Positions 2,580 to 8,308 of a stretch of DNA of 31,662 nt are shown in pieces (position 1 is the first letter of the stretch; each line of letters begins with the position of its first letter). The position numbers and the translations under genes are program-made. This stretch comes from a virus. The notes under the pieces were generated by a model, which ran no database searches, was not told the origin of the DNA, and worked only from the letters and a program-made list of their open reading frames with translations. Location: the IMG/VR virus record IMGVR_UViG_3300020438_000152, positions 1-31,662 of that record; one strand, 5' to 3'.

Positions 2580-2671
2580 TATCCCTAGCCGGATATTTTG
2601 ACGATCCAATGGAGGGCTTTGGCCTTCCACTGGTTCCTCAATTGGAACCTGTTACAACTGAACCTTTAAAA
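2580..2671 (+). promoter_or_regulatory. Early-gene leader copy 1: box plus tandem hairpins A and B
   Basis: A TATCCCTAGCC box lies at 2580-2590 and TTGACGAT at 2599-2606. Hairpin A pairs 2606-2617 with 2622-2633, giving 12 positions around a TTTG loop with an A/C mismatch at position 4 and a G-T wobble at position 9. Hairpin B pairs GGTTCC (2632-2637) with GGAACC (2644-2649). A and B share the two G at 2632-2633. The motif TTACAACTGA follows at 2652-2661, 10 bases before the ATG at 2672. The same architecture recurs at 3040-3098 and 3284-3340, and in diverged form at 3705-3776. The position between early genes recalls the RNase III sites of T7 early mRNA. Confidence 0.6.
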
Positions 2672-3034
2672 ATGAATTTTGATTCTTTAGATGCTTATCC
2701 AGCAAAGTTTAAAGCTATTCGTACTTTTTATGAATGGTCTAATAACTTTCCCAGGGGAAGAAGACAGGATAATAATCCTTTCGACTTTTACCTAGATTTT
2801 ATTGGTTATAGCATCGACAGATTAGGAGCTTATAGGTACATGGCTCCAGTACATAAGGCCGAGGAGTTTGGCTTTGGACATCATGAAAGATGTTTAATGG
2901 CTGATGCTTTAAAAGTCTTTGAAAATACTGGCTATGAGGATGTATATAGATACATCGACCTATTACAACCAACTCTAGGGAATAGAAGCAACAATGACTT
3001 AGTTGAATTTGCTGCTGCTAGATCTAGAGGATAG
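2672..3034 (+). CDS. Early hypothetical protein, 120 aa
   Basis: I do not recognise this protein. The frame is open from an ATG at 2609, but that ATG lies inside the left arm of leader hairpin A. I therefore prefer the ATG at 2672 (protein begins MNFDSLDAYPAKF), which follows the leader with the same spacing as the downstream genes. The product is rich in aromatic residues and Arg (FYEWSNNFPRGRRQDNNPFDFYLDFIGY), has no membrane segment, and its last third is helical and acidic. It sits in a run of small early genes that share the leader. Its role is unknown. If the 2609 start were used, the protein would gain 21 residues encoded by the hairpins. Confidence 0.55.
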   Translation: MNFDSLDAYPAKFKAIRTFYEWSNNFPRGRRQDNNPFDFYLDFIGYSIDRLGAYRYMAPVHKAEEFGFGHHERCLMADALKVFENTGYEDVYRYIDLLQPTLGNRSNNDLVEFAAARSRG

Positions 3035-3039
3035 ATGAT

Positions 3040-3098
3040 CCTATGGAGCCTCTCCGGAGGTTCCACAGGCTCTTCAGTAGAGTCTTAAGTTAACCTGA
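3040..3098 (+). promoter_or_regulatory. Early-gene leader copy 2: tandem hairpins A and B
   Basis: Hairpin A pairs CCTATGGAGCCTC (3040-3052) with GAGGTTCCACAGG (3057-3069) around a TCCG loop, a UNCG-type tetraloop closed by C-G. The stem is 13 positions, with the same mismatch (position 4, A/C) and wobble (position 9, G-T) as copy 1. Hairpin B pairs 3068-3073 with 3079-3084 around TCAGT and overlaps A by two G. TTAACCTGA at 3090-3098 corresponds to TTACAACTGA of the other copies. The next ATG is at 3115. Confidence 0.6.
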
Positions 3099-3114
3099 GT
3101 ATCTTTTTAAACTA

Positions 3115-3273
3115 ATGGAAGAAAAGCAACTGTTCCGGTCTTATGGTTGTTCTCCTGAGGAATATCAGAAGCAACTAGAAAAGGATTATCAGAAACTATC
3201 TGATATTTCTAAAGAGGAATATGAAGCTGCAAAAGCTTATGAAGCAGATGCCTGGATCTTTAACGAGATCTAA
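3115..3273 (+). CDS. Small early hypothetical protein, 52 aa
   Basis: This short gene runs from ATG 3115 to TAA 3273. The product starts MEEKQLFRSYGCSPEEYQ and ends AYEADAWIFNEI. It is highly charged, rich in Glu, Lys and Tyr, and predicted to be helical (EYQKQLEKDYQKLSDISKEE), with no membrane segment. I do not recognise it. Support comes from its position: it is bounded on both sides by copies of the tandem-hairpin leader, the upstream copy sits before its ATG as in the neighbouring genes, and it fills the space between two genes without overlap. No strong Shine-Dalgarno is visible, as for the other leader-carrying genes, which suggests that the leader affects translation. Confidence 0.6.
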   Translation: MEEKQLFRSYGCSPEEYQKQLEKDYQKLSDISKEEYEAAKAYEADAWIFNEI

Positions 3274-3283
3274 ACAAGTTAAT

Positions 3284-3340
3284 CCTCTGGAGCCTTTTAG
3301 GAGGTTCCATAGGCTTATCTAATAAGCCTTTTACAACTGA
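3284..3340 (+). promoter_or_regulatory. Early-gene leader copy 3: tandem hairpins A and B
   Basis: Hairpin A pairs CCTCTGGAGCCTT (3284-3296) with GAGGTTCCATAGG (3301-3313) around a TTAG loop. The mismatch at position 4 is now C/T, the wobble at position 9 is kept, and the closing pair is T-G. Hairpin B pairs AGGCTTA (3311-3317) with TAAGCCT (3323-3329) around TCTAA. B differs in sequence from the B hairpins of copies 1 and 2 yet is perfectly paired. TTACAACTGA lies at 3331-3340, 11 bases before the ATG at 3352. Confidence 0.6.
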
Positions 3341-3351
3341 TTTAATTACTT

Positions 3352-3636
3352 ATGAATAAGAAAGAACTTGCCATAGCTTTTGGCGAGCGTACTTCTCAAT
3401 TTGTATCGCCTAATGAATTAAGAGTTAGGGGAAATTGGGTCTTTCATAGAGATCCAGACTATCCAAATGAAGCTATTTGTTATGCCAAAGAGGATGGTGA
3501 TTGTATTTGTTGGGAACCTTGGTCAGATGTTCCTTTGGATAAATCACCATTTAAACCACATAACGAAGCAGTCGTTATTCAAACTCTTAAAGAGTTAGAT
3601 GAGGAATACAAAGAACACTGCAAGTGTTACGAGTAA
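3352..3636 (+). CDS. Early hypothetical protein, 94 aa
   Basis: I do not recognise this protein. It is acidic and begins MNKKELAIAFGERTSQFV. The middle (NWVFHRDPDYPNEAICYAKEDGDCICWEPWSD) looks like a compact beta-rich fold with three Cys, and the C-terminus has a further CKC pair; the Cys spacing does not match a standard zinc finger. No membrane segment is seen. It is the last gene before the strong terminator at 3645-3680, so it probably ends one early transcription unit. It follows leader copy 3 directly. Position suggests an early, host-directed role, but nothing in the sequence names one. Confidence 0.6.
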   Translation: MNKKELAIAFGERTSQFVSPNELRVRGNWVFHRDPDYPNEAICYAKEDGDCICWEPWSDVPLDKSPFKPHNEAVVIQTLKELDEEYKEHCKCYE

Positions 3637-3644
3637 CCAACAAA

Positions 3645-3680
3645 AGAGACCATATAAACCTATGGTCTCTCTCTTTTTTT
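3645..3680 (+). terminator. Rho-independent terminator after the first early gene group
   Basis: AGAGACCATA (3645-3654) pairs perfectly with TATGGTCTCT (3661-3670) around the loop TAAACC. The 10-bp stem is followed by CTC and a run of seven T. It lies 9 bases after the stop codon at 3636 and should end early transcription from the left, analogous in position though not in sequence to the T7 early terminator. Confidence 0.85.
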
Positions 3681-3704
3681 CTTTCTATTGCTTCAAAGCC
3701 TAAT

Positions 3705-3776
3705 TATCCCTGGCCCAAGTCTTGACGATTCCTTTAAGCGCACTTAGTGTTTAATGGAGTCCTCATAGTGGCTCCA
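3705..3776 (+). promoter_or_regulatory. Early-gene leader copy 4 (diverged) with TATCCCTGGCC box
   Basis: TATCCCTGGCC (3705-3715) and TTGACGAT (3722-3729) repeat the pair of boxes that precede leader copy 1, with nearly the same spacing. A single hairpin follows: TGGAGTC (3755-3761) with GGCTCCA (3770-3776), whose TGGAG core matches the left arms of copies 1-3. Hairpin B and the TTACAACTGA motif are missing. The ATG at 3803 follows a run of eight T and AAA. Because it lies just after a terminator, a promoter here would make sense; TTGACG could be a -35, but the -10 candidate at the right distance (TAGTGT) is poor. Confidence 0.4.
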
Positions 3777-4024: not shown

Positions 4025-4387
4025 ATGACTCTTAAGTGTCCTTCTTGTGGCTCTATAAGTTTCATATCTGCTGGGGGCAGTCAGGAGAAAGTTCCTGACG
4101 CTCCCTCAGTGGAGACAAGAAACAAAGAAAACACTCCATACCTAAGAAGAAGGAGGAAGTGTAAGAAATGCGGTCACTTGTTCTCAACTAGAGAATATGA
4201 AGTTAATCATCTTCAATCAATCATGCTTGCCATGAAGACAGACTCAATGACACCTGTTAGTGAGAAACATTTGGATTCTCTTACTAATGAAATACAGGAT
4301 TTGTTAGAAGAACTTCTTTCATGGGCAGGTCATGTAAAAAAACAAAAAAAACTACTCAAACAAAGGAGGAAAACTAGTGCCAATTAA
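4025..4387 (+). CDS. Zinc-ribbon protein resembling the NrdR N-terminus, 120 aa
   Basis: The N-terminus carries CPSCG (residues 5-9) and, about 40 residues later, RRRRKCKKCGHLFSTREYE, giving a four-cysteine zinc ribbon. The run of Arg before the second Cys pair and the F-S-T-R-E continuation closely resemble the zinc ribbon of NrdR, the bacterial repressor of ribonucleotide reductase genes. NrdR's ATP-cone domain is absent. Instead the protein continues with a helical segment and ends in a very basic tail (KKQKKLLKQRRKTSAN). It could bind DNA or RNA. The sequence shows the zinc ribbon directly; a role as a regulator of host NrdR targets or of phage promoters is inference. It overlaps the next gene by 11 bases. 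Confidence 0.7.
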   Translation: MTLKCPSCGSISFISAGGSQEKVPDAPSVETRNKENTPYLRRRRKCKKCGHLFSTREYEVNHLQSIMLAMKTDSMTPVSEKHLDSLTNEIQDLLEELLSWAGHVKKQKKLLKQRRKTSAN

Positions 4388-5759: not shown

Positions 5760-5799
5760 TTTAAGTCTTTGTTTTTTCTAACAAGGGACAAGACTTAAA
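5760..5799 (+). repeat. Inner attP inverted repeat (core-site half-sites)
   Basis: TTTAAGTCTT (5760-5769) is the exact inverse complement of AAGACTTAAA (5790-5799), with 20 bases between. The right copy overlaps the start of the tRNA-Leu identity at the anticodon loop. The pair could be an integrase core-type site plus a nearby copy, or an RNA hairpin. Strand exchange at the anticodon loop is typical for many tRNA-targeting tyrosine integrases. Confidence 0.55.
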
Positions 5800-5849
5800 A
5801 TCCAGAGACTGTAAAGGTCGTGCCGGTTCGAGTCCGGCCACTCGCACCA
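5792..5849 (+). other. attP core: 3' half of a host tRNA-Leu(UAA)
   Basis: The sequence begins at the anticodon loop (GA-CTTAAAA-TCCAG, anticodon TAA). It continues with a long variable arm (GAC/GTC stem) and a T arm (GCCGG-TTCGAGT-CCGGC), and ends with the 3' acceptor strand CACTCGC, discriminator A and encoded CCA at 5847-5849. The long variable arm and UAA anticodon identify tRNA-Leu. The matching 5' acceptor strand GCGAGTG and the D arm are absent upstream, so this is not a complete tRNA gene. On integration it would restore the 3' end of the interrupted host gene. Confidence 0.85.
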
Positions 5850-5864
5850 ATAAATCTGATTGGT

Positions 5865-5905
5865 AAGTAACTTACGTTTTACTGATATAAAACAAGGAGT
5901 TACTT
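5865..5905 (+). promoter_or_regulatory. Hairpin enclosing the ribosome binding site of the RNA polymerase gene
   Basis: AAGTAACT (5865-5872) is complementary to AGTTACTT (5898-5905), which ends at the base before the ATG. Inside, TTTTA (5877-5881) pairs with TAAAA (5888-5892). The Shine-Dalgarno AAGGAG (5894-5899) falls in the internal loop and the edge of the outer stem. Such a fold could reduce translation of the polymerase. The left arm also overlaps the right attP arm. Confidence 0.45.
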
Positions 5906-8308
5906 ATGAATCCAGCCCAGATTCAGATTCAAATAGAGAACGAAATGGAGTCAAGAGGCATTGATTCCTACCGTAAAAAAGTCCAGTTAAATATTGAGAA
6001 GGGAAGAGCTTCTGATAACAGCTATGCAATTCACCTAATCAAGGCAGGTTTACAACCTTTATCTGACGAAATCACAAAGTTTGTTGATAGAGCTTGGCGA
6101 GGTAAACCAGGTCCAAAAGCTATAGCAGCAAAACTACTGCAACTGTTTCCTAACCCAGATGTTGTTGCTTACATCACTTGGAAGGCTGTTATTGATCTCG
6201 TCAGCAGCGAGAAAGCTACTGCTACTGCTGTTTCTATTAAGATTGGAAATCTTTTAGAGGATGAGCTTAGATTTACTGTCTTTGAACAAAGTGATCCTAA
6301 GTTTTTCAAGGTACTAAAGAATCACATATCAGATACCAAGCATCAAGGCTATAGAAGAAACATGATGATGGGTCATATGAGAAATTATGGTTATGAATTT
6401 AAAAGCTGGAGTAAGGAAGATAAGTTACGGGTTGGCTTAAAACTAATTGAACTGCTGATGCACTCAGTTGGTTTAGTAAAGATGGCAACCAGAGGGAACT
6501 TCCATAACAAGACTAGAAAGACCTACCTTGAATTTACAGAGGAGGCTATGACTTGGATCAAAAGACAGAAGAGCAATAGATTAGCTGCTTATCCTTTACT
6601 GATGCCTTGTCTAATTCAACCTAGAGACTGGCCTGATGGTGGTTTCTATTCAGAAAGGTTGAGAAGGATCAAAGAAGTAAAGACTGCTGACACTATTTAT
6701 CTAAATGATTTACGCAATAAGAAACCAAAAGCTTTTTATGAATCACTTAATGCCTTGCAAGGTACTGAGTGGGCAGTCAAAGAAAAGGTTTTAGAGATTG
6801 CTAACTACTGCTGGAATACAAGTACACCTGTTGGCTGCCTGATAGATGCTGAAGCAGAACCCTTACCACCAAAGCCATTTGACATAGCAGACAATGAAGT
6901 TGCTAGGAAGAAATGGAGGAGGGAAGCTTCTATTATCCATGACCTAAATGCACATAACAGAGCTAAAAGATTTCAGTGCATGATGATGTTGGATACATCA
7001 GAAAAGTTTAGTGAAGGTTCTTTTTGGCACGTAGCACAGGCAGATTTTACCGGACGAATTTATCCGGTGTCTGGTACTTTTAATCCTCAGACAACAGATT
7101 TATCTAGGGGTCTTCATCACTTCAAAGAAGGTGGTCCAATTAAAAATAAAAAAGATGCTGATTGGCTAGGTATTGCTGGAGCAAATCATTGGGGACTGAA
7201 TAAGAAAAGCTTTGAAGAACGAATTGAATGGGCATATAACGAAGGCAAACATATAGCTGAAGATGTAGCTGGTAATCCTGAAGGGTATGTAGGTCTTTGG
7301 TCTAAAGCTGATGAACCTTTTCAATTCTTTGCTTGGTGTTTGGAATGGAGTCAGTATCACGAAGAAGGATTAGGTTTTATTAGCCGTCATCCTGTCTTGC
7401 TTGATGGTAGTAACAATGGTTTCCAGCATCTTGCTGCTTTAACTCTTGATCAGGATCTTGCTGTTTCAGTTAACCTGCTTGCTTCTGAAGAACCACAGGA
7501 CTTATATGACAATATAAGAACAAACTTAATAGTTAATCTTGCAGATAGTGACAGTATTTATGCACAGGATTGGTTTAATCATAGGGATTTAATAACAAGG
7601 AAGCTGGTAAAAAAACCTGTGATGATGATTCCTTATTCAGGAACTGTTTACGGTATAGCTAATACTGTTAAAGACTATGTTGCAAAAGAAAAGATAGAGT
7701 TTCCTTGGGGTACAGATAGTTTTAAACACTATTTTTTCTTAGCTACAAAGATAAAAGAATCAGTAGATAATGTCTGTCCTACTGCATCTAAGATTATGAA
7801 TTATCTTAATAGCATTGCCAGATGTTTTGCTAAAGAAGATAAAACAATTGAGTGGACTACACCTTCTGGGTTCTTAGTTAAGCAGAACTATTTCATCACT
7901 AAACGTAAGAGAATAGAGACTAAGCTTGGTTATAACAGAGTGGATGTTGCACTTCAGGAAAATACAAAAGACATAGATAAAAAGAAAACAACGCAAAGTT
8001 TTCCTAGTAATTTTATTCATTCACTTGATGCTGCTAATGTTCATTTAGCATTACAAAAAGCAAAGGCAAAAGGATTAAATCAGTTTACAACTATCCATGA
8101 TTGTTTTGGTTCTCCTGCCTGTGACATAGAAGACTTTATTAACTGTGCTAAAGAAAGTTTTGTAGAGATTTATCAAGACTATGTGTTAGATGAATTATAT
8201 AACCAAGCAGCTAAACAATTAAAAGATCCAGCTAAATTACCATCACCACTAGAAATGGGAGAGCTACATATAAGTGAAGTTATGTCATCTCCTTATGTGT
8301 TTTCTTAA
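5906..8308 (+). CDS. T7-type single-subunit DNA-directed RNA polymerase, 800 aa
   Basis: This enzyme transcribes middle and late phage genes from phage-specific promoters. Motif A is LLDGSNNGFQHLAAL with Asp500 (T7 D537). Motif B reads RKLVKKPVMMIPYSG, with Arg565, Lys569 and Tyr577 at exactly the spacing of T7 R627, K631 and Y639. Motif C is FTTIHDCFGS with Asp732 (T7 D812). The C-terminus ends SSPYVFS, comparable to the functionally important T7 end SDFAFA. Length is 800 residues against 883 in T7, with the shortfall mostly N-terminal to the palm. It has a clear Shine-Dalgarno. It starts 56 bases after attP, so after integration it would follow the restored host tRNA-Leu gene. Its promoter sequence is not obvious in this window. 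Confidence 0.97.
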   Translation: MNPAQIQIQIENEMESRGIDSYRKKVQLNIEKGRASDNSYAIHLIKAGLQPLSDEITKFVDRAWRGKPGPKAIAAKLLQLFPNPDVVAYITWKAVIDLVSSEKATATAVSIKIGNLLEDELRFTVFEQSDPKFFKVLKNHISDTKHQGYRRNMMMGHMRNYGYEFKSWSKEDKLRVGLKLIELLMHSVGLVKMATRGNFHNKTRKTYLEFTEEAMTWIKRQKSNRLAAYPLLMPCLIQPRDWPDGGFYSERLRRIKEVKTADTIYLNDLRNKKPKAFYESLNALQGTEWAVKEKVLEIANYCWNTSTPVGCLIDAEAEPLPPKPFDIADNEVARKKWRREASIIHDLNAHNRAKRFQCMMMLDTSEKFSEGSFWHVAQADFTGRIYPVSGTFNPQTTDLSRGLHHFKEGGPIKNKKDADWLGIAGANHWGLNKKSFEERIEWAYNEGKHIAEDVAGNPEGYVGLWSKADEPFQFFAWCLEWSQYHEEGLGFISRHPVLLDGSNNGFQHLAALTLDQDLAVSVNLLASEEPQDLYDNIRTNLIVNLADSDSIYAQDWFNHRDLITRKLVKKPVMMIPYSGTVYGIANTVKDYVAKEKIEFPWGTDSFKHYFFLATKIKESVDNVCPTASKIMNYLNSIARCFAKEDKTIEWTTPSGFLVKQNYFITKRKRIETKLGYNRVDVALQENTKDIDKKKTTQSFPSNFIHSLDAANVHLALQKAKAKGLNQFTTIHDCFGSPACDIEDFINCAKESFVEIYQDYVLDELYNQAAKQLKDPAKLPSPLEMGELHISEVMSSPYVFS

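Follow-up and report, generated by a model that had tools for sequence, protein, structure and literature searches.

A recurrent leader RNA with two predicted, mutually exclusive folds in the early region of MPP-C-related phages

The window analyzed here, that is, the whole stretch of 31,662 bases, is a viral record representing a linear fragment, and encodes a T7-type terminase, tyrosine integrase, single-subunit RNA polymerase, primase-helicase, and 5′-3′ exonuclease, as well as T7-type head-tail connector, capsid, and tube proteins. The RNA polymerase is nearest to that of Prochlorococcus phage P-SCSP2 (44%), and the primase-helicase matches that of P-SCSP1 at 61%. These two phages belong to the MPP-C cyanopodoviruses, were isolated on Prochlorococcus MED4, and were reported to be devoid of a DNA polymerase, with the MPP-C group accounting in some ocean regions for up to 91% of the reads assigned to cyanopodoviruses (PMC9860041). 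No DNA polymerase was found among the larger open reading frames scanned in the present record, itself a fragment. Judged by its gene content—T7-like, with no DNA polymerase among the larger frames scanned, and P-SCSP-related, as is characteristic of MPP-C—the virus is a T7-like podovirus and a relative of the MPP-C cyanophages. Given this kinship and the isolation of MPP-C phages on MED4, the host is probably a marine picocyanobacterium. Downstream of the integrase gene, at about 5790–5850, lies an attP-like 3′ half of a tRNA-Leu (anticodon TAA), the core of which is nearly identical in more than 15 related contigs; its exact pattern gave no match to cyanobacterial genomes, and thus no host. 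A small early protein encoded at 4025–4387 carries an NrdR-like zinc ribbon (Pfam PF22811, above the cut-off) and is possibly an early regulator.

Four copies of one leader RNA are present in the window. Each copy can be folded either as a single extended hairpin (state E) or as two successive hairpins, A and B (state A+B), and each is matched by R2, a covariance model described below. The features are as follows.

2598–2641, + strand: copy 1 extended hairpin (state E), consisting of a 10-nt upstream arm, hairpin A, and the 5′ arm and loop of B; constrained fold −22.0 versus −22.7 kcal/mol for A+B
2610–2629, + strand: copy 1 hairpin A, TGGAGGGC TTTG GCCTTCCA; folding, and R2 match at 2600–2661 (63.6 bits)
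2632–2649, + strand: copy 1 hairpin B, GGTTCC TCAATT GGAACC; folding; ATG at 2672
2650–2671, + strand: copy 1 linker from B to the ATG, AT-rich and without a Shine-Dalgarno (SD) motif; has ACAACTGA, a variant of the CCCAG motif
3034–3075, + strand: copy 2 extended hairpin (state E); −21.9 versus −22.2 kcal/mol for A+B
3044–3065, + strand: copy 2 hairpin A, TGGAGCCTC TCCG GAGGTTCCA; folding, R2 59.7 bits
3067–3085, + strand: copy 2 hairpin B, AGGCTCT TCAGT AGAGTCT; folding; ATG at 3115
3277–3320, + strand: copy 3 extended hairpin (state E); −18.5 versus −20.8 kcal/mol for A+B; upstream TAA at 3271–3273
3288–3309, + strand: copy 3 hairpin A, TGGAGCCTT TTAG GAGGTTCCA; folding, R2 69.6 bits
3311–3329, + strand: copy 3 hairpin B, AGGCTTAT CTA ATAAGCCT; folding; ATG at 3352
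3646–3680, + strand: intrinsic terminator just before copy 4, AGAGACCATA..TATGGTCTCT and then a T-run; sequence and fold
3723–3765, + strand: copy 4 extended hairpin (state E); −18.8 versus −16.1 kcal/mol for A+B
3734–3754, + strand: copy 4 hairpin A, TTAAGCGC ACTTA GTGTTTAA; folding, R2 27.0 bits, E = 0.0017
3755–3776, + strand: copy 4 hairpin B, TGGAGTC ... GGCTCCA; folding; ATG at 3803

Copies 1–3 had been described in the original prediction as two-hairpin leaders, and folding places both A (8–9 bp, 4-nt loop) and B (6–8 bp) at these sites. The 12- to 13-position hairpin with a mismatch at position 4 and a G-T wobble at position 9 was recovered exactly as claimed (CCT-A-TGGAG.../...TTCCA-C-AGG), so A and B do share bases. 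The overlap is nevertheless not confined to the two or three bases proposed, but comprises the whole 5′ arm of B (6 nt) and 3–4 nt of its loop, which pair with the 10 nt upstream of A. The fourth copy, located previously only at 3755–3776, is complete, with E extending over 3723–3765; the sequence of its hairpin A differs from those of copies 1–3, and the G-T wobble at pair 5 is kept. In copy 2, E starts on the G of the upstream TAG stop codon (3032–3034), and the distance from stop codon to hairpin A in copies 2 and 3 is 9–14 nt. A terminator-like hairpin also precedes the counterparts of copy 4 in L022, L029, L054, and other related loci. The sequence TATCCCT(A/G)GCC is repeated at 2580, 3705, and 3978, only in the early region, where it partly encodes SLAG at a gene end; in relatives it is found ahead of the first and last leader copies, and its position after the terminator and before copy 4 suggests a possible promoter. 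The TATCCCTGGCC motif, which precedes copies 1 and 4, is also restricted to the early region and partly encodes the C-terminal SLAG.

A covariance model (R1) built from 19 copies detected, in 1.05 Mb of sequence from relatives, ~110 copies in sense orientation at E < 1; the rebuilt model, R2, found 122, and in whole-record searches, matches were confined to the early region. With further contigs contributed by two pattern scans of IMG/VR, the merged set reached 259 copies, distributed over 118 loci of related viruses and lying in sense orientation within the early region, which bears out the expected recurrence before early genes of related phages. Model-derived copies are biased in favor of A+B pairing, and some bases of E were preset in the second pattern scan. 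Comparison of the window with 4227 Rfam families gave no match above the curated score and only chance-level matches at a relaxed threshold. The leader is a new RNA family, as had been suggested.

State E is one long imperfect hairpin (median 18 bp), with an upper stem of ~9 bp (median 9), a loop usually of 4 nt, a 1×1 mismatch, 5 bp, a second 1×1 mismatch, and ~3 bp. In state A+B, the upper stem is retained, and the freed strand pairs with the next segment to form hairpin B. In nearly every subtype, the 5′ arm of B (mid) has two complementary partners, the 6 nt before A (pre) and the 3′ arm (post), as in the pre/mid/post combinations GAACCT/AGGTTC/GAACCT, GAGCCT/AGGCTC/GAGCCT, GAACCA/TGGTTC/GAACCG, GGTTCC/GGAGTC/GACTCC, and GGACTC/GGGTTC/GAACCT, among others. 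The pre-mid pairing runs outward into the B loop to give the extended hairpin, and is thus incompatible with B. Pairing in E reaches 96–100% at six positions, whereas p7:m7 is mismatched in 90% of copies; for the adjacent pairs x:y and p1:m1, exactly one is paired in 249 of the 259 copies, so that the mismatch, too, is conserved. As computed at 37 °C, a temperature higher than that of the ocean, the median energy difference between E and A+B is 0.0 kcal/mol; for 140 of the 177 distinct copies, the difference is no larger than 3 kcal/mol. In hairpin A, U1-A and A4-U are invariant and G5-U is present in about 90% of the 259 copies, while neighboring pairs covary; no conserved loop sequence was found in this set.

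Covariation was assessed with a home-made, R-scape-like test, in which substitutions were randomly reassigned along the branches of the alignment tree and scored by a G-statistic with average-product correction, the trees being rough since they derive from 50-column alignments. With the 84 rows available before the pattern scans, helix A, inner E, outer E, and B each exceeded all 300 of 300 simulations, both in summed covariation and in compensatory changes, and slid controls showed none. With 142 rows the outcome was the same, the significant single pairs being five in A, one in B, x:y, and the outer E pair p9:m9 (E = 0.007); the 84-row test is the cleaner of the two because of the biases of model-found and second-scan copies noted above. 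The outer E pairs lie mostly in the B loop and are not pairs in the search model, which treated the pre strand as unpaired, so that the search did not favor E. Since these pairs covary all the same, E does not arise as an artifact of either B or the search. Selection on structure and competition between folds, both anticipated originally, are thereby borne out: no phylogeny-aware simulation (0 of 300) matched the observed value for any helix, and E and A+B are each kept by compensatory changes. Computation thus supports two mutually exclusive, nearly isoenergetic folds, both conserved.

An open reading frame lies downstream of 247 of the 259 copies, with the ATG at a narrowly distributed median of 25 nt after B and a CCCAG-type motif ~20 nt before the ATG in 227 of these 247; the single-stranded motif TTACAACTGA reported at first is real, but only one variant of it, most copies having CCCAG. 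The linker after B is AT-rich with little G. An SD-like motif precedes one of the 247 leader-preceded genes versus 145 of 617 other long open reading frames at their first ATG, a crude comparison because the start calls are mechanical. In L017, L020, L060, L013, L050, L053, and others, an extra hairpin (e.g., GTAGTTCTTTAGAGCTAC) is inserted between B and the ATG with unchanged CCCAG-to-ATG spacing. On the upstream side, the commonest distance from the end of the stop codon of an identified open reading frame to hairpin A is exactly 9 nt (76 of 187), and in 232 of the 259 copies the last base of a stop triplet falls on p8 or p9, within the basal part of E. The proteins encoded downstream represent 60 unrelated families, and unrelated proteins follow the two members of 491 leader pairs that are at least 93% alike; the leader is therefore a module independent of the gene it serves. 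Some copies carry along remnants of the 3′ end of one gene.

R2 gave no match in P-SCSP1b and P-SCSP2, which represent the closest relatives in culture and the sequences of which are too diverged for the covariance model. In an architecture-only search, with candidates ranked by the weaker of the two states, the top element of P-SCSP2 lies between 36252 and 36337 (E −21.9, A+B −20.7; runner-up −13.8) and that of P-SCSP1b between 435 and 522 (E −21.0, A+B −22.6; runner-up −5.8). There is one qualifying copy per genome, directly after a stop codon and before the next early gene, and none of 300 shuffled versions of these regions gave such an element. Both keep the architecture and are missing the full set of conserved hairpin A pairs. 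The element sequence is present in all 17 P-SCSP1 isolates, without useful variation in the five examined, and an SD-like motif stands ahead of its downstream gene. R2 found no matches in P-SSP7, Syn5 (first 20 kb), or two pelagiphages (first 15 kb), and the architecture scan yielded no similar element between the early genes of T7 (first 8 kb), P-SSP7, a roseophage, and pelagiphages, or of P-GSP1 and P-RSP2 (first 12 kb each). Syn5 did yield equally stable candidates, but the best were all antisense.

Several other identities were rejected. An intrinsic terminator is contradicted by the lack of a consistent T-run, TTTT following B only in copy 3 of the four and many relatives being without it; a promoter within the leader was rejected for copies 2 and 3, which leave no room for one. 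Translation of the leader in a conserved frame, which would have spoken against the original proposal, was not found: an ATG at 2609 shares the frame of the copy 1 gene, but relatives lose the frame, as lengths of A vary and the corresponding ATG in L014 reaches TAG after four codons, and hairpin A differs by single bases between homologous leaders. The GGAG/GGAGG in hairpin A is too far upstream to act as an SD and is missing in the TTAAG type, and anti-SD pairing of CCCAG or GATCC showed no consistent match by eye. Lastly, a start-occluding riboswitch or thermometer was dismissed, as neither fold hides the ribosome binding site: the mean openness of the start region (−18 to +5) is 0.61 in one state and 0.59 in the other.

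By analogy with T7, the leader may be an RNase III-type processing hairpin between early cistrons, a reading to which we give a probability of roughly 0.4. Each copy would be the cis-acting leader of one early gene on a polycistronic early transcript. As the early mRNA emerges, E would form first, because transcription completes both of its arms ahead of the 3′ arm of B; host RNase III would then cut E at or near the mismatch, as at a T7 RNase III site. The upstream mRNA would be left ending in hairpin A, whereas the downstream mRNA would begin with the released strand folded as hairpin B, which would protect it and leave ~25 nt of AT-rich, SD-free RNA before the ATG as a ribosome landing site. 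The leader would move as a unit together with early genes as these are shuffled. Both the retention of two folds and the unhidden start codon would be explained if E were cut once at the mismatch, and processing fits better than start-site occlusion because the start codon is unmasked in both states. RNase III is encoded by Synechococcus elongatus, the genome of which served as a control.

Like the T7 RNase III sites (R0.3 to R1.3), the leader is intercistronic and on the sense strand in the early region of a T7-like phage, and it has the corresponding shape, an irregular hairpin of about two helical turns interrupted by a mismatch some 10 bp below the terminal loop. When folded by the same program, T7 R1.1 has a 10-bp upper stem, a small loop, and an irregular lower stem, like E, and likewise has an A+B alternative (−22.0 versus −19.4); processing is plausible because E matches R1.1 in size and shape. 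On the other hand, the mismatch of R1.1 is an asymmetric internal loop and that of the leader 1×1, and R0.3, R0.5, R1, and R1.3 fold without a competing B hairpin of this kind, differences that would count against the analogy. The leader also departs from the T7 sites in that both folds are kept by covariation, each gene has one transferable leader, the downstream genes are SD-free, and cleavage is a prediction. Furthermore, the predicted mismatched stem of ~18 bp lies near the lower end of RNase III substrate lengths, the conserved U-A, A-U, and G-U pairs in A suggest a specific binder that RNase III would not obviously need, and copies after a terminator, such as copy 4, may stand at a transcript start, where cistron separation is unneeded. 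The cIII mRNA of phage lambda adopts two alternative structures and depends on RNase III; it resembles the leader in that RNase III is implicated and a phage mRNA has two folds close in energy, and differs in that only one gene is concerned and its start site takes part, whereas the leader is a repeated module.

Only tentatively, the leader could be viewed more broadly as a transferable, general-purpose bistable switch placed on any early gene by an abundant marine phage lineage, with translation termination or a trans factor setting the fold, and thereby the processing and SD-independent translation of the next gene. The main rival to processing, on balance unlikely, is a switch set by ribosomes, in which an upstream terminating ribosome covers the 5′ arm of E and allows A+B, E forming otherwise, and the fold determines SD-free initiation downstream. 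Such a switch is permitted by the stop-codon position, with the frequent 9-nt spacing and the stops at p8 or p9 both in its favor, as is the rarity of SD motifs in leader-preceded genes. Yet neither fold leaves the start region more open than the other, both folds persist in copies located after a terminator or a non-coding remnant, where no gene ends next to the leader, and a close stop may reflect only tight cassette packing.

Bacterial mRNAs are commonly stabilized by 5′ hairpins, and the leader could accordingly be a constitutive stabilizer or insulator, with hairpins separating genes and keeping a clean SD-free landing pad and the second fold having no regulatory role. The narrow B-to-ATG spacing and the AT-rich, low-G linker agree with this improbable reading, which leaves unexplained the compensatory changes in outer pairs specific to E, the preserved mismatch, and the balanced energies. 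We consider it quite improbable that the leader is primarily a protein binding site, in which a phage or host factor (a repressor, chaperone, or antiterminator-like protein) would read A and pick the fold, giving early genes common timing. The invariant or nearly invariant U1-A, A4-U, and G5-U among covarying neighbors and the use of one element before 60 unrelated families would suit such a factor, but no candidate binder was identified, the loop sequence is not conserved, and the P-SCSP elements keep the architecture without the full pair set.

The leader can also be compared with the promoter early stem-loop (PeSL) cassettes of T4-like phages (Arbiol 2010; Comeau 2014; as described in PMC4503421), which are composite promoter-terminator motifs. 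The leader is similar as a repeated hairpin cassette between small early genes tied to modular gene shuffling, the near-identical pairs before unrelated proteins being of the kind expected; it differs in that the 9–14 nt between stop codon and A in copies 2 and 3 would not accommodate a promoter per cassette, and in having a conserved two-state fold and no consistent T-run. That the leader serves mainly as a homology block for early-gene shuffling, as proposed for PeSLs, is very improbable despite the 491 near-identical pairs and the gene 3′-end remnants carried along, since homology needs sequence identity and here structure is kept while sequence diverges, although a recombination role can coexist with an RNA function.

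No published account of early-gene control in MPP-C phages was found. The leader provides one shared, testable element, represented by 259 copies across 60 gene families and by two types of cultured phage growing on Prochlorococcus MED4, and it shows a conserved pair of competing folds in phage intercistronic RNA. It offers a way to start SD-free genes as interchangeable cassettes, and a structural marker for early genes of uncultured phages. Apart from the leader, just 5′ of the RNA polymerase gene (5858–5912), the SD and start (AAGGAGTTACTTATG) are complementary to the upstream AAGTAACT, and relatives have a three-strand arrangement, AGTTACC/GGTAACT/AGTTACT, at this gene (L050, ~8074; L053, ~9954). 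This pairing could be a separate translational switch on the polymerase.
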